A stretch of 55,579 bases of DNA from NCBI GenBank assembly GCA_001768235.1, contig MENK01000006.1:27240-82818 (forward strand), written 5' to 3'. Under the pieces are notes generated by a model. The model ran no database searches. It was not told the DNA's origin and saw only the letters and a program-made list of their open reading frames with translations. Position numbers and translations under genes: made by a program. Of the stretch, positions 24,672 through 55,579 are shown in pieces; within the stretch, counting starts at the first letter, position 1, and each line of letters begins with the position of its first letter. The stretch comes from Bacteroidetes bacterium GWB2_32_14 (GTDB lineage: Bacteria; Bacteroidota; Bacteroidia; Bacteroidales; UBA12077).

Positions 24672-24814
24672 TGTCATTATTAGAAAAAATTTTCGTTATA
24701 GAAATTAATTTGATAATAAAATTAGAGGAATGCATATAAAATGGTGTCGCTGTTTTGTATGCATTTAAAATTTGTACAAACCTGTTATTAATAATTACTA
24801 AATTAAAAATTTTT

Positions 24815-26668
24815 ATGGATAAAAAAGCAAAAGCCATCGAAAGAGATGACGTTGTTATCCGGTTCTCGGGTGATTCTGGAGATGGTATGCAACTTACTGG
24901 AACATTGTTTTCCGATGCATCTGCATTATTCGGAAATAGTGTCAGTACATTTCCGGATTATCCTTCGGAAATACGAGCACCTCAGGGTACTGTTGCAGGT
25001 GTTTCCGGCTTTCAGGTAAACATTGGAAATTCAAAGGTATATACTCCAGGTGACTACTGTGACGTGCTTGTAGCCATGAACCCGGCTGCACTTAAAGCAA
25101 ATGTAAAGTGGGTAAAACCCGGAGGAATGATTATTGTTGATAACGATACTTTCAATGAAAAGGGCCTTCAGCGTGCTGGTTTCAAAACGAATAATGCAGT
25201 TGAAGAGCTGAAAATTGAAGATTATAAGGTAATATTTGCAAACATTACCGAATTAACCAAGGAGAGTTTAAAAGATGAAGGCCTTGATAATAAGAGTGTT
25301 CTGCGAAGCAAGAATATGTTTGCTCTTGGTATGGTTTACTATATCTTCTCACGTCCATTAAATTTTACGGAGAAGTATTTTGAATCGAAGTTTAAGAAAA
25401 AACCAGAAATCGTTGAAGCCAACAAAAAGGTTCTTCGTGATGGGTTTAATTATGCTGCAAATATTCAGGCTATTCCTAATACATATCAAATTTCGGCTGC
25501 GACAAGTACACCCAAAGGAACTTATCGAAATATTAATGGGAATACTGCTGCTGCATGGGGCTTAATTGCTGCTTCAGAGAAATCGGGGTTACCTCTTTTC
25601 TGTGGTTCATATCCTATAACTCCCGCTACCGAGATATTAATTGAGCTTGCAAAACGTAAAGATCTTGGTGTAAAAACCTTACAGGTTGAAGATGAGATTG
25701 CTGGTATTTGTACTGCAATCGGTGCTTCTTTTGCTGGAAATTTTGCTGTAACAACCACATCCGGTCCTGGCCTTTCGCTTAAGAGCGAGGCAATGGGTTT
25801 AGCCGTAATTACTGAGTTACCTTTAGTTATTATTGACGTTCAGCGTGGTGGCCCATCCACAGGATTACCTACTAAAACTGAACAATCCGATCTTTTCCAG
25901 GTTTTATATGGCCGCAATGGAGAATGTCCATTGATAGTTATTGCTGCAAGTACACCTGGTAATTGTTTTGATTATGCTTTTCTTGCCGGTAAATTGGCTA
26001 TGGAACATATGACTCCGGTTGTTTTGCTGACAGATGGTTATATTGCCAATGGAACAGAACCTTGGAAGATTCCAAACATGAAGGATTTCCCATCAATTAA
26101 TCCTCCAATTGTTGCAGAGGGAACTACAGGATTTCTGCCTTATGCACGCGACGAAAAACGCCTGGCACGTTCATGGGCCTTCCCTGGTAAAAAGGGCATT
26201 ATGCATCGTGTAGGTGGTCTCGAAAAGGATTTTCTCAAAGGAAGCGTATCACACGATCCAATAAACCACCAGAAGATGACTGATGTTCGTGCTGCTAAAG
26301 TGGAAAGAGTTAAGGAATTTATTCCTGAACAAGAAGTTTATGGTGATAAGGAAGGCGATTTACTTGTAATTGGCTGGGGAGGTACATACGGGCATTTGCT
26401 AACAGCTGTTCAAGAGATGAGAGAAGAAGGTAAAAGTGTTTCATTATGTCATTTCAATTATATCAACCCACTACCAAAGAACGTGAAGGAAATCTTTGGA
26501 CGCTATAAAAAACTTGTTGTATGCGAACTAAACATGGGGCAATTTGCAAATTACTTACGCATGAATTTCCAGGAATATAACTATTTGCAGTTCAATAAGG
26601 TGCAAGGGCTTCCATTTACGGTAGTTGAATTAGTTGATAAGTTTAATCAAATTTTGGAGGGCAAATAA
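24815..26668 (+). CDS. korA: 2-oxoacid:ferredoxin oxidoreductase, fused gamma-alpha subunit
   Basis: With KorB, this subunit oxidatively decarboxylates a 2-oxoacid (probably 2-oxoglutarate) to its acyl-CoA while reducing ferredoxin, a usual anaerobic replacement for the 2-oxoglutarate dehydrogenase complex. The gamma domain comes first (about 10-190: IRFSGDSGDGMQLTGTLF, FPDYPSEIRAPQGTVAG). The pyrimidine-binding alpha domain follows from about 215 (FCGSYPITPATEILIEL, TTTSGPGLSLKSEAMGLA). I chose ATG 24815 (MDKKAKAIERDD) over 24755 because the longer form adds a non-conserved hydrophobic stretch. KorB follows after 2 bp. Confidence 0.9.
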   Translation: MDKKAKAIERDDVVIRFSGDSGDGMQLTGTLFSDASALFGNSVSTFPDYPSEIRAPQGTVAGVSGFQVNIGNSKVYTPGDYCDVLVAMNPAALKANVKWVKPGGMIIVDNDTFNEKGLQRAGFKTNNAVEELKIEDYKVIFANITELTKESLKDEGLDNKSVLRSKNMFALGMVYYIFSRPLNFTEKYFESKFKKKPEIVEANKKVLRDGFNYAANIQAIPNTYQISAATSTPKGTYRNINGNTAAAWGLIAASEKSGLPLFCGSYPITPATEILIELAKRKDLGVKTLQVEDEIAGICTAIGASFAGNFAVTTTSGPGLSLKSEAMGLAVITELPLVIIDVQRGGPSTGLPTKTEQSDLFQVLYGRNGECPLIVIAASTPGNCFDYAFLAGKLAMEHMTPVVLLTDGYIANGTEPWKIPNMKDFPSINPPIVAEGTTGFLPYARDEKRLARSWAFPGKKGIMHRVGGLEKDFLKGSVSHDPINHQKMTDVRAAKVERVKEFIPEQEVYGDKEGDLLVIGWGGTYGHLLTAVQEMREEGKSVSLCHFNYINPLPKNVKEIFGRYKKLVVCELNMGQFANYLRMNFQEYNYLQFNKVQGLPFTVVELVDKFNQILEGK

Positions 26669-26670
26669 TC

Positions 26671-27699
26671 ATGGCAGAAAATTTTAAATATACACCACAG
26701 GATTTTAAAAGTGATCAGGAAGTACGTTGGTGTCCAGGTTGTGGTGATCACGCGATTCTTAGCGCCGTGCAAAGAGCTCTTCCAGAAATATCGGATACTC
26801 TTAACTACGATATAGAACGTTATGTATTTGTTTCGGGTATTGGCTGTTCAAGCCGTTTCCCATATTATGTAAATACTTTTGGATTCCATGGAATACATGG
26901 CCGTGCATCAGCAATTTCAACAGGAGTGAAAGTTGCCAATCCAAATCTTAGCGTTTGGCAGATTACTGGTGATGGTGACGCTTTAGCAATTGGTGGTAAC
27001 CATTTTATTCACGCTGTACGTCGTAATATTGATATCAATATTCTCCTATTTAATAACGAGATTTATGGTTTAACCAAAGGTCAATATTCCCCAACATCAA
27101 AGTTGGGTTCTATTACAAAAACATCACCATTTGGGACCGTTGAACATCCTTTCCGTCCAGGTGAATTAGTTATTGGAGCCCAGGGTAAATTCTTTGCCCG
27201 TTCAATTGATGTTGATGTTAAGTTAACATCAGAGATAATGGTTGATGCTGCAAAACACGATGGTACTTCAGTTGTTGAAATCCTTCAGAACTGTGTTATT
27301 TACAACGATAAAACACATTCGTTAATTATTGATAAGGAGAACCGCGAAGATAGAACAATAGTACTTCGTCATGGCGAAAAAATGATATTCGGAAAGAACC
27401 GTGATAAGGGACTTATACTTAGTGGAATTAGCCTTAAAGTTGTTGCGATTGGGCAGGGAGGATTCTCGATGGATGATATTCTTACACATGACGCTTATGC
27501 AGCAAATCCCGGAGTACATATGATGCTTGCAAACATGGCATATCCAGAATTCCCCGTTGCTTTAGGTGTTATCCGAAACGTGAAGGATTCAACTTATGAT
27601 GATAATGTTCGCGATCAGGTACTGGAAGTTATGAAAACTGCTAAAATTAAATCTGTTGACGATTTACTTCATAGCGGAGAAACCTGGGAAGTAAAATAA
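26671..27699 (+). CDS. korB: 2-oxoacid:ferredoxin oxidoreductase, beta subunit
   Basis: A 342-residue subunit that binds thiamine diphosphate: GDGDALAIGGNHFIHAVRRN with the later NNEIYGLTKGQ forms the ThDP/Mg motif. VRWCPGCGDHAIL holds the first two iron-sulfur cysteines, and SGIGCSSRFPYY another. It lacks a separate ferredoxin-type delta subunit, as in the two-subunit KorAB class. An unusually good Shine-Dalgarno sequence (GGAGG at about 26656) precedes the start. A terminator follows. Confidence 0.92.
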   Translation: MAENFKYTPQDFKSDQEVRWCPGCGDHAILSAVQRALPEISDTLNYDIERYVFVSGIGCSSRFPYYVNTFGFHGIHGRASAISTGVKVANPNLSVWQITGDGDALAIGGNHFIHAVRRNIDINILLFNNEIYGLTKGQYSPTSKLGSITKTSPFGTVEHPFRPGELVIGAQGKFFARSIDVDVKLTSEIMVDAAKHDGTSVVEILQNCVIYNDKTHSLIIDKENREDRTIVLRHGEKMIFGKNRDKGLILSGISLKVVAIGQGGFSMDDILTHDAYAANPGVHMMLANMAYPEFPVALGVIRNVKDSTYDDNVRDQVLEVMKTAKIKSVDDLLHSGETWEVK

Positions 27700-43129: not shown

Positions 43130-44125
43130 ATGAAAAAATTTATGGCCTTTTTATTTGCTTTTTTCTTATTCTGCCACATTGGAATAAGTCAATCTATAAC
43201 GGAAATATTAATACCGATTAAACTATCTGAAAATTTGTATGCCATTGAAAATTCTCACGGCGGAAACATTGCTTTTTTGGTAACTGATGAAGGAATAGTA
43301 GTAGTAGATGCCGGAAGTACTCCGGGTAATGGGAAACAGATTGTTACAGCTATTCAATCCGTTTCTGATAAACCTATAAAGTATTTGGTTTATACACACT
43401 TGCATGGCGATCATATAAATGGCATATCATCTTTTCCCCGGGATGTTATTATAATAGCTCAAGATAACCTGGTTGAAAATTTTAGGACAATTACCGAACC
43501 GTCTTTAAAAAACAATGTTGAAAATGTATTCCCGCAATATATTAATGGCTTAGTTTCTCAAATGGATAGTATAAGCGATAAAACGAGTGACGAATATGAA
43601 AAAATTAGTCAGCAGCTTAATATGTATAATGCTTATTTTCAGGAATTAAAAAAGGTTCAGGTTTGTTATCCCGATACAACGTTTACAGAGAAGTTTGAGA
43701 TAAATCTGGGAAATGAAAAGGTAATACTTGAATTTCCAGGCAACGGTCATACGAACGATAATATTATTGTTTGGTTTCCAAAGCATAATGCAATACATAC
43801 AGGGGATTTAATTTTTAATGGCAGTGTACCATATGTCATAGCATCACATGGAGCAACAGTTAAAGGATGGATTAGCATAGTTGATAAACTTTATACAGGA
43901 AAGTTTAAATACGTTATTCCCGGTCATGGTTCAATAACGAATAACGAAGCTTTTAAAATCCAGGCGGATTATTTTAAAAATCTAACTGAGAAGGTTAAAG
44001 AACATAAAAGCCACGGATTAAGTTTAGAAGATATAAAAAACAAAATTAGTTTTAATGAAATTAACCTGTCTGATGAAGGGAACCAATTCCCGGTAAATAT
44101 AGAAGTTGTTTATAATGAGTTATAA
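43130..44125 (+). CDS. Exported metallo-beta-lactamase-fold hydrolase
   Basis: A 331-residue protein with a signal peptide (to about GISQS) and a complete dizinc site: H90, H92, D94 and H95 in THLHGDH, then the histidine in FPGNGHTNDN, the aspartate in HTGDLIFNG and the last histidine in VIPGHGSI. It resembles subclass B1-like/SoxH-type hydrolases. It may be a beta-lactamase relative, but a lactonase or other periplasmic hydrolase is as likely. It is divergent from yceI copy 2. Confidence 0.85.
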   Translation: MKKFMAFLFAFFLFCHIGISQSITEILIPIKLSENLYAIENSHGGNIAFLVTDEGIVVVDAGSTPGNGKQIVTAIQSVSDKPIKYLVYTHLHGDHINGISSFPRDVIIIAQDNLVENFRTITEPSLKNNVENVFPQYINGLVSQMDSISDKTSDEYEKISQQLNMYNAYFQELKKVQVCYPDTTFTEKFEINLGNEKVILEFPGNGHTNDNIIVWFPKHNAIHTGDLIFNGSVPYVIASHGATVKGWISIVDKLYTGKFKYVIPGHGSITNNEAFKIQADYFKNLTEKVKEHKSHGLSLEDIKNKISFNEINLSDEGNQFPVNIEVVYNEL

Positions 44126-44189: not shown

Positions 44190-46343
44190 TTATTGTAGAT
44201 TTTTAACAACGTCAATTACTTCAGGCAGATCCATTCCTAAATCTTTAAGATGTTCAATCTTTGGAATACCATTTGAATTCCACCCTCTGCGTTTGTAAAC
44301 TGCATCGAGTAATTGCTCGTATCTGTTCTCGCGGTATTTACGAGTAATTGCAACTTTTTCCTGGGTTGTTTTTCCTACAGGATCAACTCCGATGATCTCT
44401 TTCATCTGTTTATCGTAACGTTCTGCTCTTGATTCGTATTCTTCAACTGTTACAGGCCCGGCAGCACGATAAGGTTGTGCATCGTTTTTACGCAAACCAT
44501 AACCACGGCGAATGTTAAATACACGCTGGAAGTTATAAACACGTTCTGACATACGGATTAATTCGTGTTTGTCGAATTCGTTGCCTGTAACTGCTTTATA
44601 AATAGCAACATAATTATCAACATGCTCAGGAACTTTTGCTGGTTCGCTTGTTTTTGCGTTATCTTCAGGTTCAACATCGTTCCAGGGGAGTTTGCATAAT
44701 CCCATTAATCCAAACCAGGTACGGAACATTGGAAAATAATGTAGTGCTTCGGCTTTCTTTTCAAAGGTTGGAATCTGGTTATTTACCATATCCATAAATA
44801 TTAACCATGCTTCGTCGTGCTGAGGCCCTTTGTTGGTCATTGCATAACCACCCTGTTGTGCTAATGATTCTTTTGAAACATATTGCGAATATTCCAATCC
44901 TTTATTTTCCATACCAATGTCTTGCATGAACTGGGCATCGCCCCATCCCTGGGCAGCAAAATATTCTTTCATTTTACGAACACCCATCCCTGCAATCTTT
45001 CCAAAACCTTCGCCACGTGCCATTTGATGCAATACTTCCATTGCCCCGTCAGCATTACCAAAATTAAGTTTAATACCTCCGGTACGTTCTTCATTTAGAA
45101 TGCCATTTTCATAACATTCCATTACAAAGCCCATAAGAGTACCGAATGTAATTGTACAAATACCGTAAGTATCGCAATAGAAGTTTGTTTCAATAGTAAA
45201 ATCAGGATTGAAAATCCCCATAATTGAACCATTCGATGATGTTGTTTCATATTCTGGCCCGTCAACGATTACTTTTTGTCCGGCATAAGGCCCTGTTCTT
45301 ACAAGGTAGTTGTCAACCCCTTTGGCGCACGACATGTTGCAACCTATCCAGCAGCCATCAGGAATATTTTGGGTAAATCTTGATTTCCAAACGTTAGCAT
45401 GAATTTTATCTGCATCTTTATGGCTTCCGAATTTAAAATTGTTTACAGGTAAAAGATCGTAATCATTCATAACATTTGTGAGGTGAGCTGTACCGATAGC
45501 ACGCATCTGGCATTGGGAGTCGTCCAAATCACGCATTTCTTTATTGAAACGTTTTCCACGTTCCATAATAGCTTCCAAATCAACAACATTATTCAGGTTT
45601 CCTTTTACCCCGGGAACTTTTGCTACTAAAGCTTTTATTTTTTTGTTTCTGAAAACAGTACCAATACCACCACGGCCAGCTTGTTTTAAACGAACCAGTT
45701 TACGTTTTGGATCCCAAAAAGTAAAGTTTAACATTCCTATTAAACTGTGATCGGCTGCTGTACCAGCAGAAACTACAGAAACATTTTTTCGATCTTTTTC
45801 GTCATCAGAGAACATTTCGTGCAGTACTTCGCCTAATACATGGCTATCGATTGGTTCTTGAGGAGCTTCGATAATTTCAACTTTTCCATTAACACCGTCG
45901 ATAAAAACAATAACTTCTTTATCCGATTTTCCCTGGATTTCAACAGCATCGAAACCGGCAAATTTTGAGAATGGCCCAAAATGCCCGCCTACGTTTGAAT
46001 CCATTATGGAATCGGTTTGAGGAGAAATAGATACAACTATGGCTTTACCTGTACCTGAGTACTGGGTTATACCACAAATAGGGCCTCCTGCAATTACAAT
46101 CTCATTTTCAGGATCATCCCATTTTGTGTTTGGTTTAGTTCCATCCCACAATAACTTCAATCCAAAGCCTTTACCACCAACAAATTTATCTTTCATTAAT
46201 TCGGTAACAGGTTTTTCTTTGATTTCATGTGTTCCAACATTCACGTACAAGGTACGGTTGTTGTATCCTTTATCAATTTCATGTAATTCATATTTCCACT
46301 CTTTGAGTAGTTTATGTGCTGCTTTCATCTTTTGAATATCCAT
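44190..46343 (-). CDS. aor: Aldehyde ferredoxin oxidoreductase (tungsten/molybdopterin type)
   Basis: A 717-residue cytosolic enzyme that interconverts aldehydes and carboxylates with ferredoxin, using a tungsto-bispterin and a [4Fe-4S] cluster. The N-terminal AOR domain has FVGGKGFGLKLLWDGTKP and AGGPICGITQYSGTGKAIVV. Cluster cysteines are C331, C335 and C339 (DGCWIGCNMSCAKG) with C550 (GLMGLCKLPWND); the first gap is x3 rather than the x2 of archaeal AOR. It is longer than the roughly 600-residue archaeal enzymes. A clear Shine-Dalgarno site (AGGGAG) precedes the ATG. DUF364, ThiF- and MoaD-like genes lie divergently upstream. Confidence 0.92.
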   Translation of the reverse strand: MDIQKMKAAHKLLKEWKYELHEIDKGYNNRTLYVNVGTHEIKEKPVTELMKDKFVGGKGFGLKLLWDGTKPNTKWDDPENEIVIAGGPICGITQYSGTGKAIVVSISPQTDSIMDSNVGGHFGPFSKFAGFDAVEIQGKSDKEVIVFIDGVNGKVEIIEAPQEPIDSHVLGEVLHEMFSDDEKDRKNVSVVSAGTAADHSLIGMLNFTFWDPKRKLVRLKQAGRGGIGTVFRNKKIKALVAKVPGVKGNLNNVVDLEAIMERGKRFNKEMRDLDDSQCQMRAIGTAHLTNVMNDYDLLPVNNFKFGSHKDADKIHANVWKSRFTQNIPDGCWIGCNMSCAKGVDNYLVRTGPYAGQKVIVDGPEYETTSSNGSIMGIFNPDFTIETNFYCDTYGICTITFGTLMGFVMECYENGILNEERTGGIKLNFGNADGAMEVLHQMARGEGFGKIAGMGVRKMKEYFAAQGWGDAQFMQDIGMENKGLEYSQYVSKESLAQQGGYAMTNKGPQHDEAWLIFMDMVNNQIPTFEKKAEALHYFPMFRTWFGLMGLCKLPWNDVEPEDNAKTSEPAKVPEHVDNYVAIYKAVTGNEFDKHELIRMSERVYNFQRVFNIRRGYGLRKNDAQPYRAAGPVTVEEYESRAERYDKQMKEIIGVDPVGKTTQEKVAITRKYRENRYEQLLDAVYKRRGWNSNGIPKIEHLKDLGMDLPEVIDVVKNLQ

Positions 46344-46542
46344 ATATTTTCTCCCTGATTAAATAGTTCATTTTTATAGTTTCCAAAATTATAAAATTAA
46401 AGCGTTTAAGTAAAGTATAAAATGACTTAAATCAATATGTTAAATGCTGCATATCGCTTTGTTGGCCGCTATTTTCATGAACGTATGTGAATATGAGTAT
46501 GTTGATATACAAAAGCAAGCGCGTAAATAATATAAGTTTTTG

Positions 46543-46550
46543 TAAATTTG
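46543..46550 (+). promoter_or_regulatory. -7 promoter element of the DUF364-thiF-thiS transcript
   Basis: TAAATTTG is an exact TAnnTTTG match, 29 bp before the ATG at 46580. No -33 element is clear. Confidence 0.5.
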
Positions 46551-46579
46551 TTTATCCTTGTAAAAATAATTATTGTAAA

Positions 46580-47281
46580 ATGCAGGAACCTGTTGAATAC
46601 TTTTTTGAAAAATATGGCATAGACCTCCGGAATATACAGCTTATTGTTTGTGGGCAGAAATATGTAGCCGTGAAATTAAAGAATGGAAATATTGGTGTTT
46701 GTGCTACTTTAGACAATTATGTAAATATTGAAGTACGTGATTTACGGTTCCCTAATCTTAAAAATATTCAACACAGAATTGTACTTACAGCTTATTTTAA
46801 TGCTACTTTCAATTATGAAAATAAATATAATTCTTCCATTGATATTTTTGATAAAATTAATTTCAGGGAGTATAAAAACATTGTTATGATTGGTTTTTTT
46901 CAGTCTCTTTCGGAGAAATTCAAGGCAGAAGGGATTAATTTAACTATATTTGATAACAATATTCAGCATACTATGTTAACAGATATGCAGGAACAAATTT
47001 CTAAAGTCTCAGGAGCTGATGCATTAATCCTGACTTCTACAACGGTTTTCAATAATACTTTTTTGAATTTGATAAATGCTACTAATAAAAAGTGTGATAT
47101 TTTCACTTTAGGCCCATCTACCATAATGAATAAAGAAATGTTTAGGTATAGAAATGTAAAATTACTTTTTGGTTCTATATTTGAGCCAAACGACATACTT
47201 ACACTTAAAATAATTCAGGGCGGAGGAGGAACTAAACAATTTATGCCTTATATGAAAAAAGTTTTTTTGCAAAACAATTAG
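46580..47281 (+). CDS. DUF364/DUF4213-family protein (putative heavy-metal chelation domain)
   Basis: A 233-residue soluble protein. I chose ATG 46580 (MQEPVEYFFEKYG) because the in-frame ATG at 46487 lies upstream of the promoter element. The C-terminal half has DALILTSTTVFNNTFLNLI, FTLGPSTIMNKEMF and IIQGGGGTKQF, which match the DUF364 pattern of a putative metal- or pterin-binding fold. Such proteins often sit near molybdenum/tungsten genes. Here it is divergent from aor and ahead of ThiF- and MoaD-like genes, so a role in loading or transport of W/Mo for AOR is plausible but inferred. Confidence 0.7.
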   Translation: MQEPVEYFFEKYGIDLRNIQLIVCGQKYVAVKLKNGNIGVCATLDNYVNIEVRDLRFPNLKNIQHRIVLTAYFNATFNYENKYNSSIDIFDKINFREYKNIVMIGFFQSLSEKFKAEGINLTIFDNNIQHTMLTDMQEQISKVSGADALILTSTTVFNNTFLNLINATNKKCDIFTLGPSTIMNKEMFRYRNVKLLFGSIFEPNDILTLKIIQGGGGTKQFMPYMKKVFLQNN

Positions 47282-47400: not shown

Positions 47401-47979
47401 ATGACTTTCGAAGAAATAAGGGAAAGACTTAAAAATTTTACGGCAGGTATTGCCGGGGCTGGCGGACTGGGTTCTAACTGTGCTGTTGCTCTGGCCAGAG
47501 TTGGTATTGGGAAATTAATAATTGCCGACTTTGATATAGTAAGTGAATCGAACCTGAACAGACAATATTACTTCAGAGATCAGGTGGGTATGAAAAAAGT
47601 AGAAGCTCTTAAAGAAAATATTTTAAGAATAAACCCGGATGTTGAAATTGAAATTCATGATATCAAACTTAATCAATCAAATTTAAGTACAATTTACAAA
47701 GAATGCCATGTACTTGTTGAAGCATTTGATTTGGCTGAAATGAAAAAAATGCTGATAGAAACCTGTATTTCAGAGTTGCCAGATAAACCCGTTGTTGTTG
47801 GTTTAGGAATGGCAGGATGGGGTGATAGCAACTCGATACATTTGCGAAAATCTGAAAATATCTATATTTGTGGAGATGAAAAATCTGAGATTTCTGAAAT
47901 CAACCCGCCTTTAGCCCCAAGAGTTGCAATGGTGGCAAATTTACAGGCAAATACAGTGCTTGAAATATTGATTAAATAA
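47401..47979 (+). CDS. ThiF-family adenylyltransferase, short form
   Basis: A 192-residue E1-like enzyme that adenylates the C-terminal GlyGly of a sulfur-carrier protein. It has GAGGLGSN (19-26) as the nucleotide loop, IADFDIVSESNLNRQYYF with the conserved Asp and Asn-Arg, and DLAEMKKMLIE as crossover region. It lacks the CxxC zinc sites and catalytic cysteine found in MoeB and longer ThiF, fitting the short ThiF family 2. The ThiS/MoaD-like gene follows after 21 bp. Whether the pair serves thiamine or metallopterin is open; the aor context favours the latter. Confidence 0.85.
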   Translation: MTFEEIRERLKNFTAGIAGAGGLGSNCAVALARVGIGKLIIADFDIVSESNLNRQYYFRDQVGMKKVEALKENILRINPDVEIEIHDIKLNQSNLSTIYKECHVLVEAFDLAEMKKMLIETCISELPDKPVVVGLGMAGWGDSNSIHLRKSENIYICGDEKSEISEINPPLAPRVAMVANLQANTVLEILIK

Positions 47980-48764: not shown

Positions 48765-51700
48765 ATGGCTGAGTCATTAAATCACAATAATGAGTTTAGT
48801 AAGCTTTTAGCCGAGAATAAAGAACGGTTAAAAGAATTATCATGTATAAATCAGACAACAGCTATAATAAAGGAAGGGAAATCGGTTGAAGAAACCTTAC
48901 AAATGATAGCGTTGTTATTGCCACATGCATGGCAATATCCCGATTATACTGTTTCCAGGATAAACTTTGGAGGATTAAGCTATCTTAGCCCAGGTTTTAA
49001 TGAAACAGAATGGGTTCAGAAACAGTCTTTTCAAAGCATTGATGGCGAAGAAGGAACAATAGAAATATTTTACACGAAAGAATTCCCAAAACTTTTTGAA
49101 GGCCCATTTTTAAAAGAAGAACGGGATTTAATCAACAATCTTTCAAATTTAATACTTGGTTATATCAACAGCTTAAAAGCAAAAAAAATAATCAGGCAGC
49201 AGTCAGATAAACGTCCGGTACCCAGAACAGCTTCTCAATCAGCAGACAAAGATTTAAATAGCCGCCAGTTATTACAGAAATTCTTAAATAAACACAATGC
49301 CGACAGGGACTTGCTGCATGATCTTATGCCTTTTAAAGTTAAAGAAATACTTTTAATTGCAAATCTTTACGATGCTTATAGTATAGAAAAAGAAGGGCGG
49401 TTTACCGATCATATTTTAGGTGAGTATCATCAGTTAAATTTAACTTCACTGCCAAGGGTAACAGGAGTATCAACCGAAGATGAAGCCCTTGAAGCAATGG
49501 AAAACAAACATTTCGACCTGGTTATCCTTATGATGGGAGTTGATAAAAAAACCCCTTTAAAGATAAGCCATACTCTAAAAGAAAAATATAAATACATCCC
49601 GTTATTCCTTTTACTCAATAACAATAGCGACTTAACTATTTTAGAAGAGCAAAAAAAAGACCTTTCATCAATAGATAAAGTTTTTGTATGGAATGGTGAC
49701 TCCAAGGTATTTTTTGCAATGGTTAAGCTAATTGAAGATAAGGTGAATGTTGAAAATGATACCAGGGGAGGCTTAACGCGGGTTATTCTTTTAGTTGAAG
49801 ATTCTGCTAAATATTATTCCCGCTATTTGCCCATGCTTTATAAAATTATTATGGAACAAACCCGTCGGTTAATTGAAGATGTAAATACCGATGATTTATA
49901 TAAAGTTCTGAAAATGCGTGCACGGCCAAAAATATTACTTGCCGGGAATTACGAGGAGGCTATGGAGATTTTTGAACTTTACAAAGATTATTTTCTTTGT
50001 GTTATTTCCGATGTGTGTTTCCCCCGAAATGGAGAGTTAAACGAAACAGCAGGCTTTGAACTTATTAAATATGTAAAACAAAATGTTGCAAATCTGCCAA
50101 CAGTTTTGCAATCATCGAATCCCGATAATGCAACTTTTTCATACGAAATAAAGTCGAACTTTATTAATAAAAATTCAGAAAGCTTATTACAGGATTTAAA
50201 AAGTTTTATTAACTATCACCTTGGGTTTGGCCATTTTGTTTATCGCGACAACCAGGGCAGGCAAATTGCAGTTGCAAAATCAATGGCCGAATTTGAATCG
50301 TATCTTAAAACTGTTCCCGACGATTCGTTAATTTATCATGCTGTAAAAAACCAGTTCTCACTATGGCTCATGGCACGTGGAGAGATTCAGATTGCTAAAA
50401 TTATTAATCCTTTAAGAATTAGTGATTTTGAAAATACACAACAATTACGCAATTTTTTAATTGATATCTTAAAACTATACCGAAATGAGCAGGAAAAGGG
50501 TAAAATTGTAAATTTCAGCGAATCGGCTATTTTAGAAGAAAACAATATTGTCAGCCTTGCATCAGGTTCGCTTGGCGGCAAGGGTCGTGGATTAGCATTT
50601 ATTAATACCCTCATTTATAATTTTAAATTTAAAGAATTACTTCCTCTTATCAATGTTCGAACCCCTCGAACGAGTATTATTGGAACCGACGAATTTGATA
50701 TGTTTATTGAATCAAATAAGCTTGAAGATACAATTTTTAATGAGACAAATTATGTTGAATTGCGTAAGGTATTCTTACAAGGCGAATTATCATATACATT
50801 AAAGAAACGACTAAAAATATTCCTTGAATTAATAACAAAACCTTTAGCTATTCGTTCGTCAAGTTTATTTGAAGATAGCATTAATCAACCTTTTTCGGGG
50901 ATATTTGAAACATATATTTTACCTAATAACAATCCCGATTTTGATACCAGGCTACAACAAACCATGGATGCAATAAAACTTGTTTATGCATCAATATATT
51001 CAAACCATTCACGAAACTATTTTAAAGCAATTGACCATAAAGTTGAAGAGGAAAAAATGGCAGTGATTATACAGGAAGTTGTAGGTAATCAATTTGATGG
51101 ATGCTATTATCCTCATATTAGCGGAACGGCTCAATCGCACAATTTTTATCCTGTTGCACACATGAAACCTGACGAGGGGTTTGCTGTTGCAGCACTCGGG
51201 CTTGGTCAATATGTTGTTGAAGGCGAAAAAGCTTTCCGTTTTTCACCGAGTTATCCCGAATTGGAAATTGTTTCTGCAAAAGATTTGTATAAAAGCTCTC
51301 AGGTTTATTTTTATGCCGTAGATCTTAAAAAAGAAAACCTGAACTTACTTGAAGGCGAAGATGCCGGTTTAATCAGGCTCGATATTAGCGAAGCTGAAAA
51401 ACACAACACATTAAAACATCTCGCATCTGTTTATGATGTAACTAATGACCGTGTAAATCCTGGAACTGATACTTTTGGACCACGAATAATAAATTTTGCC
51501 AATATTCTAAAATTCGAATACATTCCTCTTGCCAAAACAATTAATATTATTCTTGATGTAGTTAAAGAAGCTCTTGGTTCCCCTGTAGAAATAGAATTTG
51601 CTGTTGATCTTTCCAAAGATAAAAGCGGCCTTGCATCATTCTATCTTTTACAAATAAAACCGTTAGTGGGTAACGAAGATGATTTTAATATTGACATTGA

Positions 51701-52226
51701 AAATATTCATAAAGAAAAAACTGTTTTGTATTCCGAAAGAACTATGGGGAATGGTAAAATACAGAATATTAGCGATATAATATATGTTAAACCAGAAACC
51801 TTTGATAATACAAAAACTCTTGAAATGGCCGATGAAATTGATAAACTGAATTCAAAAATGCAATCACGGGGAAAGTCATATGTCTTAATTGGACCGGGCA
51901 GGTGGGGAACAAGAGATAAATTTATTGGCATTCCTGTCGTTTGGCCACAAATATCAAATGCAAAAGTTATTGTAGAAATTAGTCTCGAAGATTTTCCTTT
52001 AGATGCTTCACTGGGTTCTCACTTTTTTCATAATGTTACATCAATGAATGTAGGTTATTTCTCAGTAAACCATAAGTTTATTAAAGATTTTATTACCTGG
52101 GATATTTTAAATGAACAAAAAGTAGTTGAACAAACTAAATATTTTAAGCATATTCGATTCGAGAAACCAGTAACAATTACAATGGATGGACGAAAACGAA
52201 TATCTGCAATTACTTATGATGAATAA
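48765..52226 (+). CDS. GAF-like / degenerate receiver / receiver / PPDK-type ATP-grasp protein (paralogue 1)
   Basis: A 1153-residue soluble protein in four parts. Residues about 20-140 look like a GAF-type sensor (INQTTAIIKEGKSVEETLQM). About 193-325 is a receiver-like fold with methionine M256 in place of the phospho-acceptor Asp (DLVILMMGVD). About 339-485 is an intact receiver with E345/D346, D416 (VISDVCF) and K469, and a long first helix. From about 596 comes a PPDK N-terminal ATP-grasp domain: SGSLGGKGRGLAF, LAIRSSSLFEDSINQPFSG and a closing VLIGPGRWGTRDKF. I see no phosphohistidine swivel domain and no PEP-binding barrel, so it is unlikely to be PEP synthase. The substrate is unknown. 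Confidence 0.8.
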   Translation: MAESLNHNNEFSKLLAENKERLKELSCINQTTAIIKEGKSVEETLQMIALLLPHAWQYPDYTVSRINFGGLSYLSPGFNETEWVQKQSFQSIDGEEGTIEIFYTKEFPKLFEGPFLKEERDLINNLSNLILGYINSLKAKKIIRQQSDKRPVPRTASQSADKDLNSRQLLQKFLNKHNADRDLLHDLMPFKVKEILLIANLYDAYSIEKEGRFTDHILGEYHQLNLTSLPRVTGVSTEDEALEAMENKHFDLVILMMGVDKKTPLKISHTLKEKYKYIPLFLLLNNNSDLTILEEQKKDLSSIDKVFVWNGDSKVFFAMVKLIEDKVNVENDTRGGLTRVILLVEDSAKYYSRYLPMLYKIIMEQTRRLIEDVNTDDLYKVLKMRARPKILLAGNYEEAMEIFELYKDYFLCVISDVCFPRNGELNETAGFELIKYVKQNVANLPTVLQSSNPDNATFSYEIKSNFINKNSESLLQDLKSFINYHLGFGHFVYRDNQGRQIAVAKSMAEFESYLKTVPDDSLIYHAVKNQFSLWLMARGEIQIAKIINPLRISDFENTQQLRNFLIDILKLYRNEQEKGKIVNFSESAILEENNIVSLASGSLGGKGRGLAFINTLIYNFKFKELLPLINVRTPRTSIIGTDEFDMFIESNKLEDTIFNETNYVELRKVFLQGELSYTLKKRLKIFLELITKPLAIRSSSLFEDSINQPFSGIFETYILPNNNPDFDTRLQQTMDAIKLVYASIYSNHSRNYFKAIDHKVEEEKMAVIIQEVVGNQFDGCYYPHISGTAQSHNFYPVAHMKPDEGFAVAALGLGQYVVEGEKAFRFSPSYPELEIVSAKDLYKSSQVYFYAVDLKKENLNLLEGEDAGLIRLDISEAEKHNTLKHLASVYDVTNDRVNPGTDTFGPRIINFANILKFEYIPLAKTINIILDVVKEALGSPVEIEFAVDLSKDKSGLASFYLLQIKPLVGNEDDFNIDIENIHKEKTVLYSERTMGNGKIQNISDIIYVKPETFDNTKTLEMADEIDKLNSKMQSRGKSYVLIGPGRWGTRDKFIGIPVVWPQISNAKVIVEISLEDFPLDASLGSHFFHNVTSMNVGYFSVNHKFIKDFITWDILNEQKVVEQTKYFKHIRFEKPVTITMDGRKRISAITYDE

Positions 52227-52249
52227 AAATATGAAAAACGAATAGAGTT

Positions 52250-55222
52250 ATGAGCTTTTATACCAATCAACAAGATACTTTAAGAATCGATTTTAACGAT
52301 ACTTCGTTTAACTTATTGATGCAGCGGCGAATTCATAAAGTATTATTAATAGCCAGCAGTTACGACTCATTTATGCTCGAAGAAGATGGACGTATTGATG
52401 AACAGATTTTTAACGAATATGTATCATTGAACTTACGTTATCCTCCCATATTTATTCTGGCAAATACAGCCGAGCAGGCATTTGAAATCCTGCGTACCGA
52501 TAATATCGATTTAGTTATCAGTATGCTTCGTATTGGTGGAACTGATACTTTTAGTTTTGCACGTGAAATAAAAAAATTGTATCCTTCAGTACCAATTGTT
52601 GTTCTGACACATTTCTCCCGCGAAGTATCAATGCGTCTCGATAAGGAAGATTTAAGCGCAATCGATTATGTTTTTTGCTGGCTTGGAAATGCTGATTTAT
52701 TGTTGGCAATCATAAAACTTATTGAAGACAGGATGAATGTGAATTACGATGTTGAAGTCGTTGGTGTTCAAACCATTCTCCTGGTTGAAGATTCAATCCG
52801 TTATATATCTTCTTATTTACCCAATATTTACAAGATAATCTTTTTGCAATCGAAAGAATATATGAGGGAAGCATTAAACGAACATCAACAAATGCTTCGT
52901 ATGCGGGGGCGCCCCAAAATTCTTTTAGCAACTAACTACGAACAGGCTATCGAACTTTATGATAAATTCAGGTTTAACATGTTAGGTATTATTTCTGATA
53001 TCACTTACAAACGTAAAGGAGTAAAAGATAAACTTGCCGGAATTAAGTTATGCCAAAAGGTACGCGAAGAAGATGAGTTCATGCCGTTCCTGCTTCAATC
53101 GTCAGAAATGGAAAATATAAAGTATGCCGATGAGCTAAATGTGGGTTTTATACATAAATATTCAAAAACATTACCTATAGAACTTAGAAATTATATTATC
53201 AAGCAATTTGCATTCGGGGAGTTTATCTTTCGCGATCCGGAAACATTAAAACCTATAGGGCACGCTTCCGATTTGCAATCATTACAACATTTAATCTTAA
53301 CAATACCTGACAATTCACTCGAATATCATGCTAGTCGTAATGATTTGTCGAAGTGGTTAAACGCCCGTGCAGTATTTCCAATAGCACAACTCTTTAAATA
53401 TCTTACTTTAGGAGATTTTAAAAACCTGAAAGAAGCTCGAACATACATATATAAAGCGATATCAAGTTATAGAATGAGCAAGGGGAGAGGTGTTATTGCA
53501 AAATTCGATAAAAGCAGTTTCGACGAATACCTTATTTTTTCACGTATTGGCGATGGATCTATTGGAGGTAAAGCCAGGGGGCTTGCTTTTGTAAATTCAA
53601 TAATTAAAAAATACAATATTTTCAATAAATTCCCGGGTATAATAATTACGATACCCCGAACCGTTGTTTTAAGTACAGATATTTTCGATGAATTCATGGA
53701 AGAAAACGATTTGTATAAAATCGGAATGTCTGACAGAAGTGACGAAGAAATTCTTGATCACTTTGTTCAGGCAAAACTTCCAAGTCGTGTTTACCAAGAT
53801 TTATATGCATTTATTTCTGTAATACAAAACCCGATAGCCATACGTTCATCATCAAAATTGGAGGATTCACATTATCAACCGTTTGCAGGAATTTATTCAA
53901 CATATATGATTCCTAAAACCAGCAATGGCACGCTCATGATAAAAATGCTTTCCGATGCCATTAAATGTGTTTATGCTTCTGTATATTTTAAAGGAAGTAA
54001 AGCATATATGGCTGCAACATCAAATGTTATTGATGAAGAAAAAATGGGTATTGTTTTACAGGAAGTTTGTGGCACACAGTTCGGAAACAAATTTTACCCA
54101 ACAATATCAGGTGTTGCAAGATCAATAAATTTTTATCCAATTGAACCCGAAAAACATGACGATGGAATAGCGAATATTGCTTATGGGCTGGGTAAACAGA
54201 TTGTTGATGGAGGTGTTTCATTAAGATTTTCACCAAAATACCCGAAAAAGATATTACAGCTCTCATCGCCTGAACTTGCATTAAAAGATACTCAGAAGTT
54301 TTTTTATGCACTCGATATGTGTCCTACAAAATTTATCCCTTCCGTTGATGATGGAATAAATCTGGTAAAATACGAGATAAAAGAAGCAGAAAACGACTCT
54401 TCATTACGATTTGCGGCATCAACATATGATTTTCAAAACCATATCCTTCGCGATGGAATTATTTATGAAGGGAAGAGAGTTCTTACTTTTGCTAATATCT
54501 TAAAAAATGATATTTTCCCATTAGCCGAAATTTTAAGAACATTGCTCGAAGTTGGTCAGAAAGAAATGAGCAACCCCATAGAAATTGAATTTGCCGTAGA
54601 TTTGAATGTCGAAAAAGGAGAGCCTGTTGTGTTTAACTTTTTGCAAATCAGGCCCATTGTAGATAATGATCAAACTACAAATTTTAATATAAAAGATGTT
54701 AATAAAGAAGATACTATTATTTATTGTGAATCGGCTTTAGGTAATGGTAAAATTGATGATATTTACGATTTTGTATATGTTAAACCTGATGCATTTAAAT
54801 CGCTGGAAAGTGAGAAAATTGCGTTCGAAATAGGACAGATGAATGATAAATTTGTCAGAGAAAAGAAGAATTATGTTTTGGTTGGCCCGGGAAGATGGGG
54901 AACAAGCGATCCCAATTTAGGTATTCCTGTTAAATGGGCACATATTTCCCAGGCAAGAGTTATTGTTGAAAGCGGGTTAGAAAATTACAGGATCGACCCA
55001 AGCCAGGGAACACATTTTTTCCAAAACCTGACATCTTTTCGTGTTGGGTATTTTACTATTAATCCGTATATTAATGATGGGTTTTTTAATCTGGACTATT
55101 TAAATAAGTTTAAACCGGCTTCAGATAATAAATATTTAAGGCATATCAGGTTCGAAAATCCTATTAAAGTTATGATTGATGGGAAAAACAATAAGGGGGT
55201 AATCTTAAAAGAAAATATATAA
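52250..55222 (+). CDS. Degenerate receiver / receiver / PPDK-type ATP-grasp protein (paralogue 2)
   Basis: A 990-residue paralogue of the preceding gene, 23 bp downstream, lacking its GAF-like N-terminus. The first receiver-like unit (about 28-160) has methionine M92 at the phospho-acceptor site (DLVISMLRIGG). The second (about 173-318) keeps E180/D181, D250 (GIISDITYK) and K303. The ATP-grasp region starts near 433 (GDGSIGGKARGLAF) with IAIRSSSKLEDSHYQPFAG and ends with FNFLQIRPI near 795-803, followed by YVLVGPGRWGTSDPNLGIP. The two probably act together in a signal-controlled phosphotransfer or ligase reaction. No swivel histidine domain is evident. Confidence 0.8.
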   Translation: MSFYTNQQDTLRIDFNDTSFNLLMQRRIHKVLLIASSYDSFMLEEDGRIDEQIFNEYVSLNLRYPPIFILANTAEQAFEILRTDNIDLVISMLRIGGTDTFSFAREIKKLYPSVPIVVLTHFSREVSMRLDKEDLSAIDYVFCWLGNADLLLAIIKLIEDRMNVNYDVEVVGVQTILLVEDSIRYISSYLPNIYKIIFLQSKEYMREALNEHQQMLRMRGRPKILLATNYEQAIELYDKFRFNMLGIISDITYKRKGVKDKLAGIKLCQKVREEDEFMPFLLQSSEMENIKYADELNVGFIHKYSKTLPIELRNYIIKQFAFGEFIFRDPETLKPIGHASDLQSLQHLILTIPDNSLEYHASRNDLSKWLNARAVFPIAQLFKYLTLGDFKNLKEARTYIYKAISSYRMSKGRGVIAKFDKSSFDEYLIFSRIGDGSIGGKARGLAFVNSIIKKYNIFNKFPGIIITIPRTVVLSTDIFDEFMEENDLYKIGMSDRSDEEILDHFVQAKLPSRVYQDLYAFISVIQNPIAIRSSSKLEDSHYQPFAGIYSTYMIPKTSNGTLMIKMLSDAIKCVYASVYFKGSKAYMAATSNVIDEEKMGIVLQEVCGTQFGNKFYPTISGVARSINFYPIEPEKHDDGIANIAYGLGKQIVDGGVSLRFSPKYPKKILQLSSPELALKDTQKFFYALDMCPTKFIPSVDDGINLVKYEIKEAENDSSLRFAASTYDFQNHILRDGIIYEGKRVLTFANILKNDIFPLAEILRTLLEVGQKEMSNPIEIEFAVDLNVEKGEPVVFNFLQIRPIVDNDQTTNFNIKDVNKEDTIIYCESALGNGKIDDIYDFVYVKPDAFKSLESEKIAFEIGQMNDKFVREKKNYVLVGPGRWGTSDPNLGIPVKWAHISQARVIVESGLENYRIDPSQGTHFFQNLTSFRVGYFTINPYINDGFFNLDYLNKFKPASDNKYLRHIRFENPIKVMIDGKNNKGVILKENI

Positions 55223-55438: not shown

Positions 55439-55579
55439 ATGAACGTAGATAAATTAATTAATCAGCTGGAGAAAAAACATCCTGGAGAAGTTGAGTATCT
55501 TCAAGCTGTCAGAGAAGTTTTAGAATCAATCGAGGAAGTTTATAACCAGAACCCTCAGTTCGAAAAAGCAGGTATTATC
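55439..55579 (+). CDS. gdhA: Glutamate dehydrogenase (N-terminal 47 residues, cut by window edge)
   Basis: The frame from ATG 55439 is open to the end of the window. The segment VEYLQAVREVLESIEEVYNQ is the conserved N-terminal helix of hexameric NADP-type glutamate dehydrogenases, which make glutamate from 2-oxoglutarate and ammonia. Coenzyme preference cannot be confirmed from this fragment. It is monocistronic at its 5' side, with its own promoter. Confidence 0.8.
   Translation, partial: MNVDKLINQLEKKHPGEVEYLQAVREVLESIEEVYNQNPQFEKAGII

Follow-up and report, generated by a model that had tools for sequence, protein, structure and literature searches.

The window analysed here is a stretch of 55,579 nucleotides of contig MENK01000006.1 from Bacteroidetes bacterium GWB2_32_14. 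Towards its 3′ end, two genes, called P1 and P2 in the following, are located on the forward strand with a spacing of 23 bp (Table 1). The initial annotation had described them as adjacent paralogues of 1153 and 990 amino acids; both open reading frames were confirmed, and the two proteins are 38% identical over 960 alignment columns. The start codon of a glutamate dehydrogenase (GDH) gene is located 216 bp after the P2 stop codon, and the last 141 bases of the window are the beginning of this gene. Over its 47 codons, the stretch shares 89% identity with the GDH of L045, a close relative with the gene order KorA, KorB, P1, P2, a 233-aa protein and GDH. GDH fragments also stand at the beginning of three other contigs of the genome: another 5′ end on C4, and 3′ ends on C21 and C27. 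Together with the end of the window, they suggest that the assembly broke at two GDH copies of closely similar sequence.

Table 1. Features of the P1-P2 locus in window coordinates. Domain boundaries of P1 are approximate, as derived from Pfam and from the alignment to P2.
Feature	Position	Strand	Length or residues	Remarks
P1	48765..52226	+	1153 aa	
P1 N-terminal domain			residues ~1-150	without Pfam match
P1 receiver-like domain 1			residues ~193-337	
P1 receiver 2			residues ~338-484	
P1 DUF5752-like helical domain			residues 504-583	weak match
P1 PPDK-type ATP-grasp			residues 602-982	
P1 orphan tail	51720..52223	+	residues 986-1153	invariant tail residues as in P2
P2	52250..55222	+	990 aa	
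P2 pseudo-receiver 1			residues 29-172	
P2 receiver 2	52769..53203	+	residues 174-318	Asp250, Ser284 and Lys303 each in 63/63 rows
P2 helical domain			residues 322-415	weakly DUF5752-like
P2 PPDK-type ATP-grasp			residues 437-820	
P2 orphan tail	54713..55219	+	residues 822-990	GPGRWG, Asp887, Glu907, S-x-G-T-H922-F-F
GDH gene start	55439..55579	+	first 47 codons	cut by contig end

Several other genes of the window were annotated as well. A small DivIC/FtsB-like protein is encoded directly upstream of P1 (48338-48646, + strand; DivIC E 3e-6, slightly below the cut-off), a position that is taken by KorB and not by this gene in L045 and L046. The alpha and beta subunits of a 2-oxoacid:acceptor oxidoreductase are encoded at 24755-27699, with alpha above the TIGR03710 cut-off and beta below its cut-offs; in close relatives such as L045, a pair of this kind is located directly upstream of P1-P2. 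Further genes encode a member of the aldehyde ferredoxin oxidoreductase family (44190-46343, - strand; AFOR_C E 3e-97), a ThiF family 2 adenylyltransferase above the NCBIfam cut-off (47401-47979, + strand) and, before the latter, a DUF4213/DUF364 putative heavy-metal chelation protein (46487-47281). The product of the gene at 43130-44125 (+ strand) has a metallo-beta-lactamase fold and resembles SoxH-related hydrolases. It was not called a beta-lactamase, since it is below the cut-off of all 25 NCBIfam families listed (of 69 matched).

P1 and P2 represent a real, widespread and functionally unassigned family, for one member of which RefSeq gives only the name "PEP/pyruvate-binding domain-containing protein". 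The order of receiver 1, receiver 2, helical domain, ATP-grasp and tail was obtained from a 63-row alignment and from an AlphaFold2 model of P2 (mean pLDDT 85.3). The domain-wise structure prediction that had been proposed for this locus thus returned two receivers, a helical domain and the ATP-grasp, together with a confidently folded tail without a clear match in the PDB. The receiver had been described as fused directly to the ATP-grasp; the fusion is real and involves the intact receiver 2, but the helical domain stands between the two. The DUF5752 label of this helical domain is weak because of the low scores (22.9 bits in P1 and 15.1 in P2 at a cut-off of 23; 25.8 in one relative). The N-terminal domain of P1 is shared with a sister family and with a separate 275-aa protein of the same genome. 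This domain, the helical domain and the GDH neighbour were absent from the initial annotation.

Judged by their sequences, both proteins belong to the PPDK_N ATP-grasp superfamily (PF01326), in agreement with the domain type originally proposed: the Pfam model matched P1 with 124 bits (E 8.3e-36) and P2 with 129 bits (E 3.7e-37) at a cut-off of 27. Eight residues of the P2 domain (Lys441, Arg532, Glu538, Asp539, Gln604, Glu778, Glu780 and Gln799) are present in 63/63 rows, while Arg801 is replaced by Lys in 11 rows of the same alignment. Lys441, Arg532, Glu778, Glu780 and Gln799 presumably have the roles of their counterparts in PPDK.

The claim of two receiver folds holds for the folds themselves. 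The P2 model has two alternating strand/helix units in this region, and Foldseek pairs it with PleD and many single receivers, although Pfam reports only receiver 1 of P2 above its cut-off (32.0 vs 30.2 bits), with 16.6 bits for receiver 2 of P2 and 14.0 and 13.9 bits for the two receivers of P1. A phospho-accepting aspartate is found in only one of the two. At the acceptor position of receiver 1 (92), Asp occurs in 0/63 aligned rows, which marks this domain as a pseudo-receiver. Receiver 2 combines the fold, the phospho-Asp, Ser/Thr and Lys positions (Table 1) and an acidic pocket consisting of Glu180 (63/63) and Asp181 (61/63, Asn in 2), as expected of a phospho-acceptor. With receiver 2 intact, P1 and P2 count as response regulators in this respect, and their output is unusual.

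In the tail, Arg882, Trp883, Gly884, Asp887, Glu907, Ser918 and His922 are present in all 62 tail-bearing rows, the split gene L051 with its gaps in the tail being left out of these counts. The motif VGPGRWGT, previously given for both proteins, is found in P2, whereas P1 reads IGPGRWGT. With the sister family added, the motif residues are invariant in 24/24 rows although its tails share only 25-32% identity with that of P2, so that the motif is not due to chance. The tail alone folds at a pLDDT of 93.7. A Foldseek search of this model against the PDB gave nothing below E 0.001 (best 0.027, TM ~0.28), and the tail profile found only chance-like matches among PDB sequences (best E 0.25). In 34 of 198 genomes of the phylum, the tail was found in frames of at least 575 aa, whose lengths fit the receiver-type proteins and the SHORT and LONG proteins of the sister family described below. 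On the tests run (Pfam, hhalign, Foldseek), it is an orphan domain, which may be catalytic or dock GDH.

The lack of a phosphohistidine swivel domain and of a PEP barrel, noted from the start, was borne out. At E <= 1, no Pfam match to PF00391 or to the PEP barrel was listed for P1 or P2, and none was listed for 37 tails at E <= 10; a profile match in the C-terminal tail was the finding named in advance as refuting. With hhalign, two tail profiles reached probabilities of 0.3% and 0.1% against ten PPDK swivel domains and 0.2-1.1% against the single E. coli ppsA and ptsI swivels, compared with 96.8% (ppsA) and 94.1% (ptsI) for a PPDK profile as positive control. For the C-terminal PEP/pyruvate barrel, no Pfam or NCBIfam match was listed, and P2 stops after the 169-residue tail. 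The tail was also considered as a divergent swivel domain, with GTHFF corresponding to GGxTSH; this was rejected on the basis of the Pfam scan of the 37 tails, hhalign with its controls and Foldseek.

For the analysis of gene neighbourhoods, 39 other genomes with a receiver-type match at E <= 1e-200 were selected from 296 genomes of the phylum, the genome of the window being left out. Two candidates were scored per genome, and the resulting 49 receiver-type genes are thus not a full census. GDH genes were searched with the GDH-family model PF00208, a few members of which may be other amino-acid dehydrogenases, and 78 PF00391 genes of the same genomes, by length mostly PPDK and enzyme I, served as controls. 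A PF00208 gene is located within 5 kb of 42 of the 49 receiver-type genes (within 1.5 kb of 40), while none of the 78 controls has one even at 20 kb; linkage to GDH is thus above background. PF00208 genes are likewise found within 5 kb of 12/13 LONG/SHORT genes, and in the opposite direction 70/91 PF00208 genes have a family member within 5 kb. The neighbourhood survey had been suggested as a search for a stand-alone histidine-domain protein; instead of such a protein, GDH emerged as the neighbour, and the idea that the partner is a separate protein is probably right.

The linkage is not universal, since 7 of the 49 genes have no GDH within 8 kb and since it is less frequent in a second set, drawn from another collection and consisting of the best 80 of 576 relatives, with GDH within 8 kb in 32 loci and none in 48 (10 and 14, respectively, of the 24 loci with full flanks). 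Where GDH is linked in this set (32 loci), its nearest copy is transcribed divergently from the family gene in 14 loci and lies downstream on the family gene's strand in 13; in these arrangements the family gene is upstream of gdhA. Phylum-wide, the nearest GDH within 1 kb is located upstream on the same strand for 30/40 receiver-type genes and for 16/16 LONG/SHORT places. In a record of Parabacteroides distasonis, the gene annotated as gdhA and the family gene, itself annotated as 'PEP/pyruvate-binding domain-containing protein', are divergent, and a second GDH follows about 3.5 kb further. The linked GDHs also differ in type: of four representatives, those of L045 and L042 are above the NCBIfam GDH cut-offs, and those of L033 and L040 clearly belong to the GDH family with scores below the equivalog cut-offs. 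A partnership of the family with GDH is considered very likely.

Pairing of family genes with their GDHs was analysed in two ways. With the nearest GDH of any orientation, the correlation was 0.11 and inside the permuted range, with 21/28 concordant comparisons. With the upstream same-strand GDH, a choice made after the first test had failed, the distance correlation was 0.68 over 36 pairs (permuted mean 0.005, maximum 0.40), and the same subfamily split was found in 60/60 comparisons, which are non-independent and come from six two-copy loci. This second test is weaker than its numbers, because it was chosen post hoc and its comparisons come from six loci. As linked genes are co-inherited, the pairing shows a conserved unit of family gene and GDH, which may reflect duplication of the unit and not contact.

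Only in L040 (L040:1646-14312) was a histidine kinase confirmed to lie directly between two family units; there, GDH, family gene, PAS histidine kinase, LuxR-type regulator, GDH, family gene and GDH follow each other on one strand. In L196, an annotated HAMP kinase is located about 5.5 kb from the family gene, and in L035, L039 and L041 receiver-like proteins are found a few genes away according to the gene listing. Among the window genes scanned with Pfam beside P1 and P2, there was no kinase.

The sister family consists of LONG and SHORT proteins. The LONG proteins, mostly of about 1060 aa, have ATP-grasp and tail in common with P1 and P2, and most of them carry a C-terminal pol-beta-type nucleotidyltransferase; of three LONG-type proteins scanned, two had NTP_transf_2 above the cut-off, and the signature GS...DxD was counted by eye in 18/23 rows. 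Several of them share the N-terminal domain of P1. The SHORT proteins (about 580 aa) consist of ATP-grasp and tail. Some LONG genes follow a SHORT gene, and most follow a GDH of a different type. GDH is present within 8 kb in 17 of 22 LONG/SHORT places, counted also in genomes beyond the 39 and with adjacent SHORT and LONG genes merged into one place. A metallophosphoesterase adjoins LONG in 12 of 23 loci. No such neighbour turned up in 152 further loci of the family; many of these are short-flanked or overlap with one another. The 275-aa protein mentioned above, on contig C8 of the genome of the window (L199:227-1920), consists of the P1 N-terminal domain and a pol-beta-type nucleotidyltransferase and adjoins a calcineurin-like phosphoesterase of the same kind as the one beside LONG. 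The position of a transferase beside a phosphoesterase suggests a reversible nucleotide tag in the sister family, on a putative target.

P1 and P2 are interpreted here as dedicated, ATP-dependent regulators of GDH that are gated by a two-component system, a reading to which we give about an even chance. A histidine kinase would phosphorylate receiver 2, which together with the pseudo-receiver would gate the PPDK-type ATP-grasp. The ATP-grasp and the tail with its invariant Arg, Asp, Glu, Ser and His would then modify or clamp the GDH encoded next to them at the expense of ATP, and glutamate synthesis or breakdown would be turned up or down with the nitrogen or energy state. Covalent modification of GDH would be the likeliest chemistry. 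Two features favour it over simple binding, though only moderately: the tail has invariant polar residues, and the sister family carries a nucleotidyltransferase. As a tentative possibility, the ATP-grasp and tail (GPGRWG...SxGTHFF) would form a covalent switch that modifies GDH, e.g., by phosphorylation, with the nucleotidyltransferase and metallophosphoesterase of the sister family attaching and removing a nucleotide. Non-covalent regulation, in which the ATP-grasp serves only as a sensor of ATP, ADP or AMP (and perhaps also of glutamate or 2-oxoglutarate) and binding of the protein to GDH leads to allosteric inhibition or activation, appears doubtful. The linkage to GDH and the lack of a phosphate-accepting swivel domain would fit it, and the output of receivers is often a protein-protein contact; however, the invariance of the ATP-grasp residues (63/63) and of the polar tail residues (62/62) suggests chemistry, and the sister family adds a nucleotidyltransferase.

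It is unlikely that P1 and P2 are instead metabolic enzymes, i.e., receiver-gated ATP-dependent kinases or ligases with glutamate, 2-oxoglutarate or ammonium as substrate, in a pathway shared with GDH. Such a function would be in line with the PPDK-type ATP-grasp, with a drug phosphotransferase as best structural match (see below) and with the presence of KorAB (2-oxoacid:ferredoxin oxidoreductase) in the vicinity of family genes at 11 of the 80 loci of the second set, but the linked GDHs are of several types, and besides GDH (32 loci) no neighbour cluster occurs in more than 12 loci of this set plus the window. Members without a nearby GDH and the divergent arrangement in 14/32 linked loci would also be explained by co-location for transcriptional reasons only, with the protein acting elsewhere, for example in general nitrogen signalling, and merely co-regulated with GDH. 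Against this very unlikely explanation stands a linkage that is found in several arrangements, to several GDH types and in two diverged subfamilies. A split PEP synthase or PPDK-like phosphotransfer in which another protein carries the phosphohistidine domain, an arrangement close to the original idea, would account for a PPDK_N ATP-grasp without swivel and barrel. No stand-alone PF00391 protein was found to support it, as the only match in the genome of the window is in a 919-aa frame and the 78 places listed in the 39 related genomes are all in frames of at least 581 aa; this scheme is highly improbable.

GDH is a meeting point of carbon and nitrogen metabolism, and the linkage of the family to it points to a name that would suit these proteins better than 'PEP/pyruvate-binding domain-containing protein'. 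A trans-acting gene appears in the title of Baggio and Morrison 1996 (J Bacteriol 178:7212), as cited in PMC4539542. As a lead, the GDH-linked family offers a testable class of candidates for this gene.

The best Foldseek match of the P2 model is rifampin phosphotransferase (RPH, PDB 5hv1; E 9.2e-13, 445 columns, 17% identity), and RPH (5hv1, 5hv6, 5fbs) also gave a sequence-profile match within the P2 ATP-grasp at residues ~466-654. The domains of RPH include one for drug binding and a His swivel, whereas P1 and P2 have receivers in front, the orphan tail behind and no swivel according to Pfam and hhalign; the general Pfam and NCBIfam scans also listed no rifampin-binding domain for them. With PEP synthase and PPDK (TIGR01418, PF01326), they share the PPDK_N ATP-grasp and its conserved residues, but the PF00391 swivel and the PEP/pyruvate barrel are missing, and the NCBIfam PEP synthase models match both proteins through part of the ATP-grasp only (TIGR01418 ~28 vs 740 bits). 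P1 and P2 are thus not PEP synthase, PPDK or RPH, all of which have the swivel and the first two also the barrel; the comparison suggests a lineage of PPDK-type ATP-grasp proteins without phosphohistidine swivel and with a tail of no recognised fold. Regulators of the PleD type have two receiver folds in tandem as well; here one of them is degenerate, and the output is an ATP-grasp with an orphan domain instead of GGDEF or DNA binding. In a nitrate-resistance cluster of Desulfovibrio, a gene for a PPDK-type ATP-grasp protein has genes for a histidine kinase and for a receiver protein as neighbours (PMC4001038). The ATP-grasp protein of this cluster has a mobile (swivel) domain and the receiver is separate, and the passage of PMC4001038 on this cluster names no GDH.

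In the literature searched, judged by titles and abstracts and with most subscription papers outside its scope, no study of the family was found, and we know of no described GDH control system of such a build. GarA of mycobacteria and APRTh of Thermus are likewise dedicated protein regulators of GDH, and are set apart from P1 and P2 by acting through binding and by unrelated folds. GlnE and GlnD, the modifying enzymes of glutamine synthetase and PII, exert dedicated covalent control of nitrogen assimilation. The likeness to them is conceptual, and no homology is claimed beyond the pol-beta signature: the nucleotidyltransferase of this type is present in the sister family and not in P1 and P2, and the putative target is GDH. 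If the tentative reading as a covalent switch together with the sister system is true, Bacteroidota would have a previously unrecognised way of controlling GDH, which would parallel the GlnE/GlnD cycle with different components.
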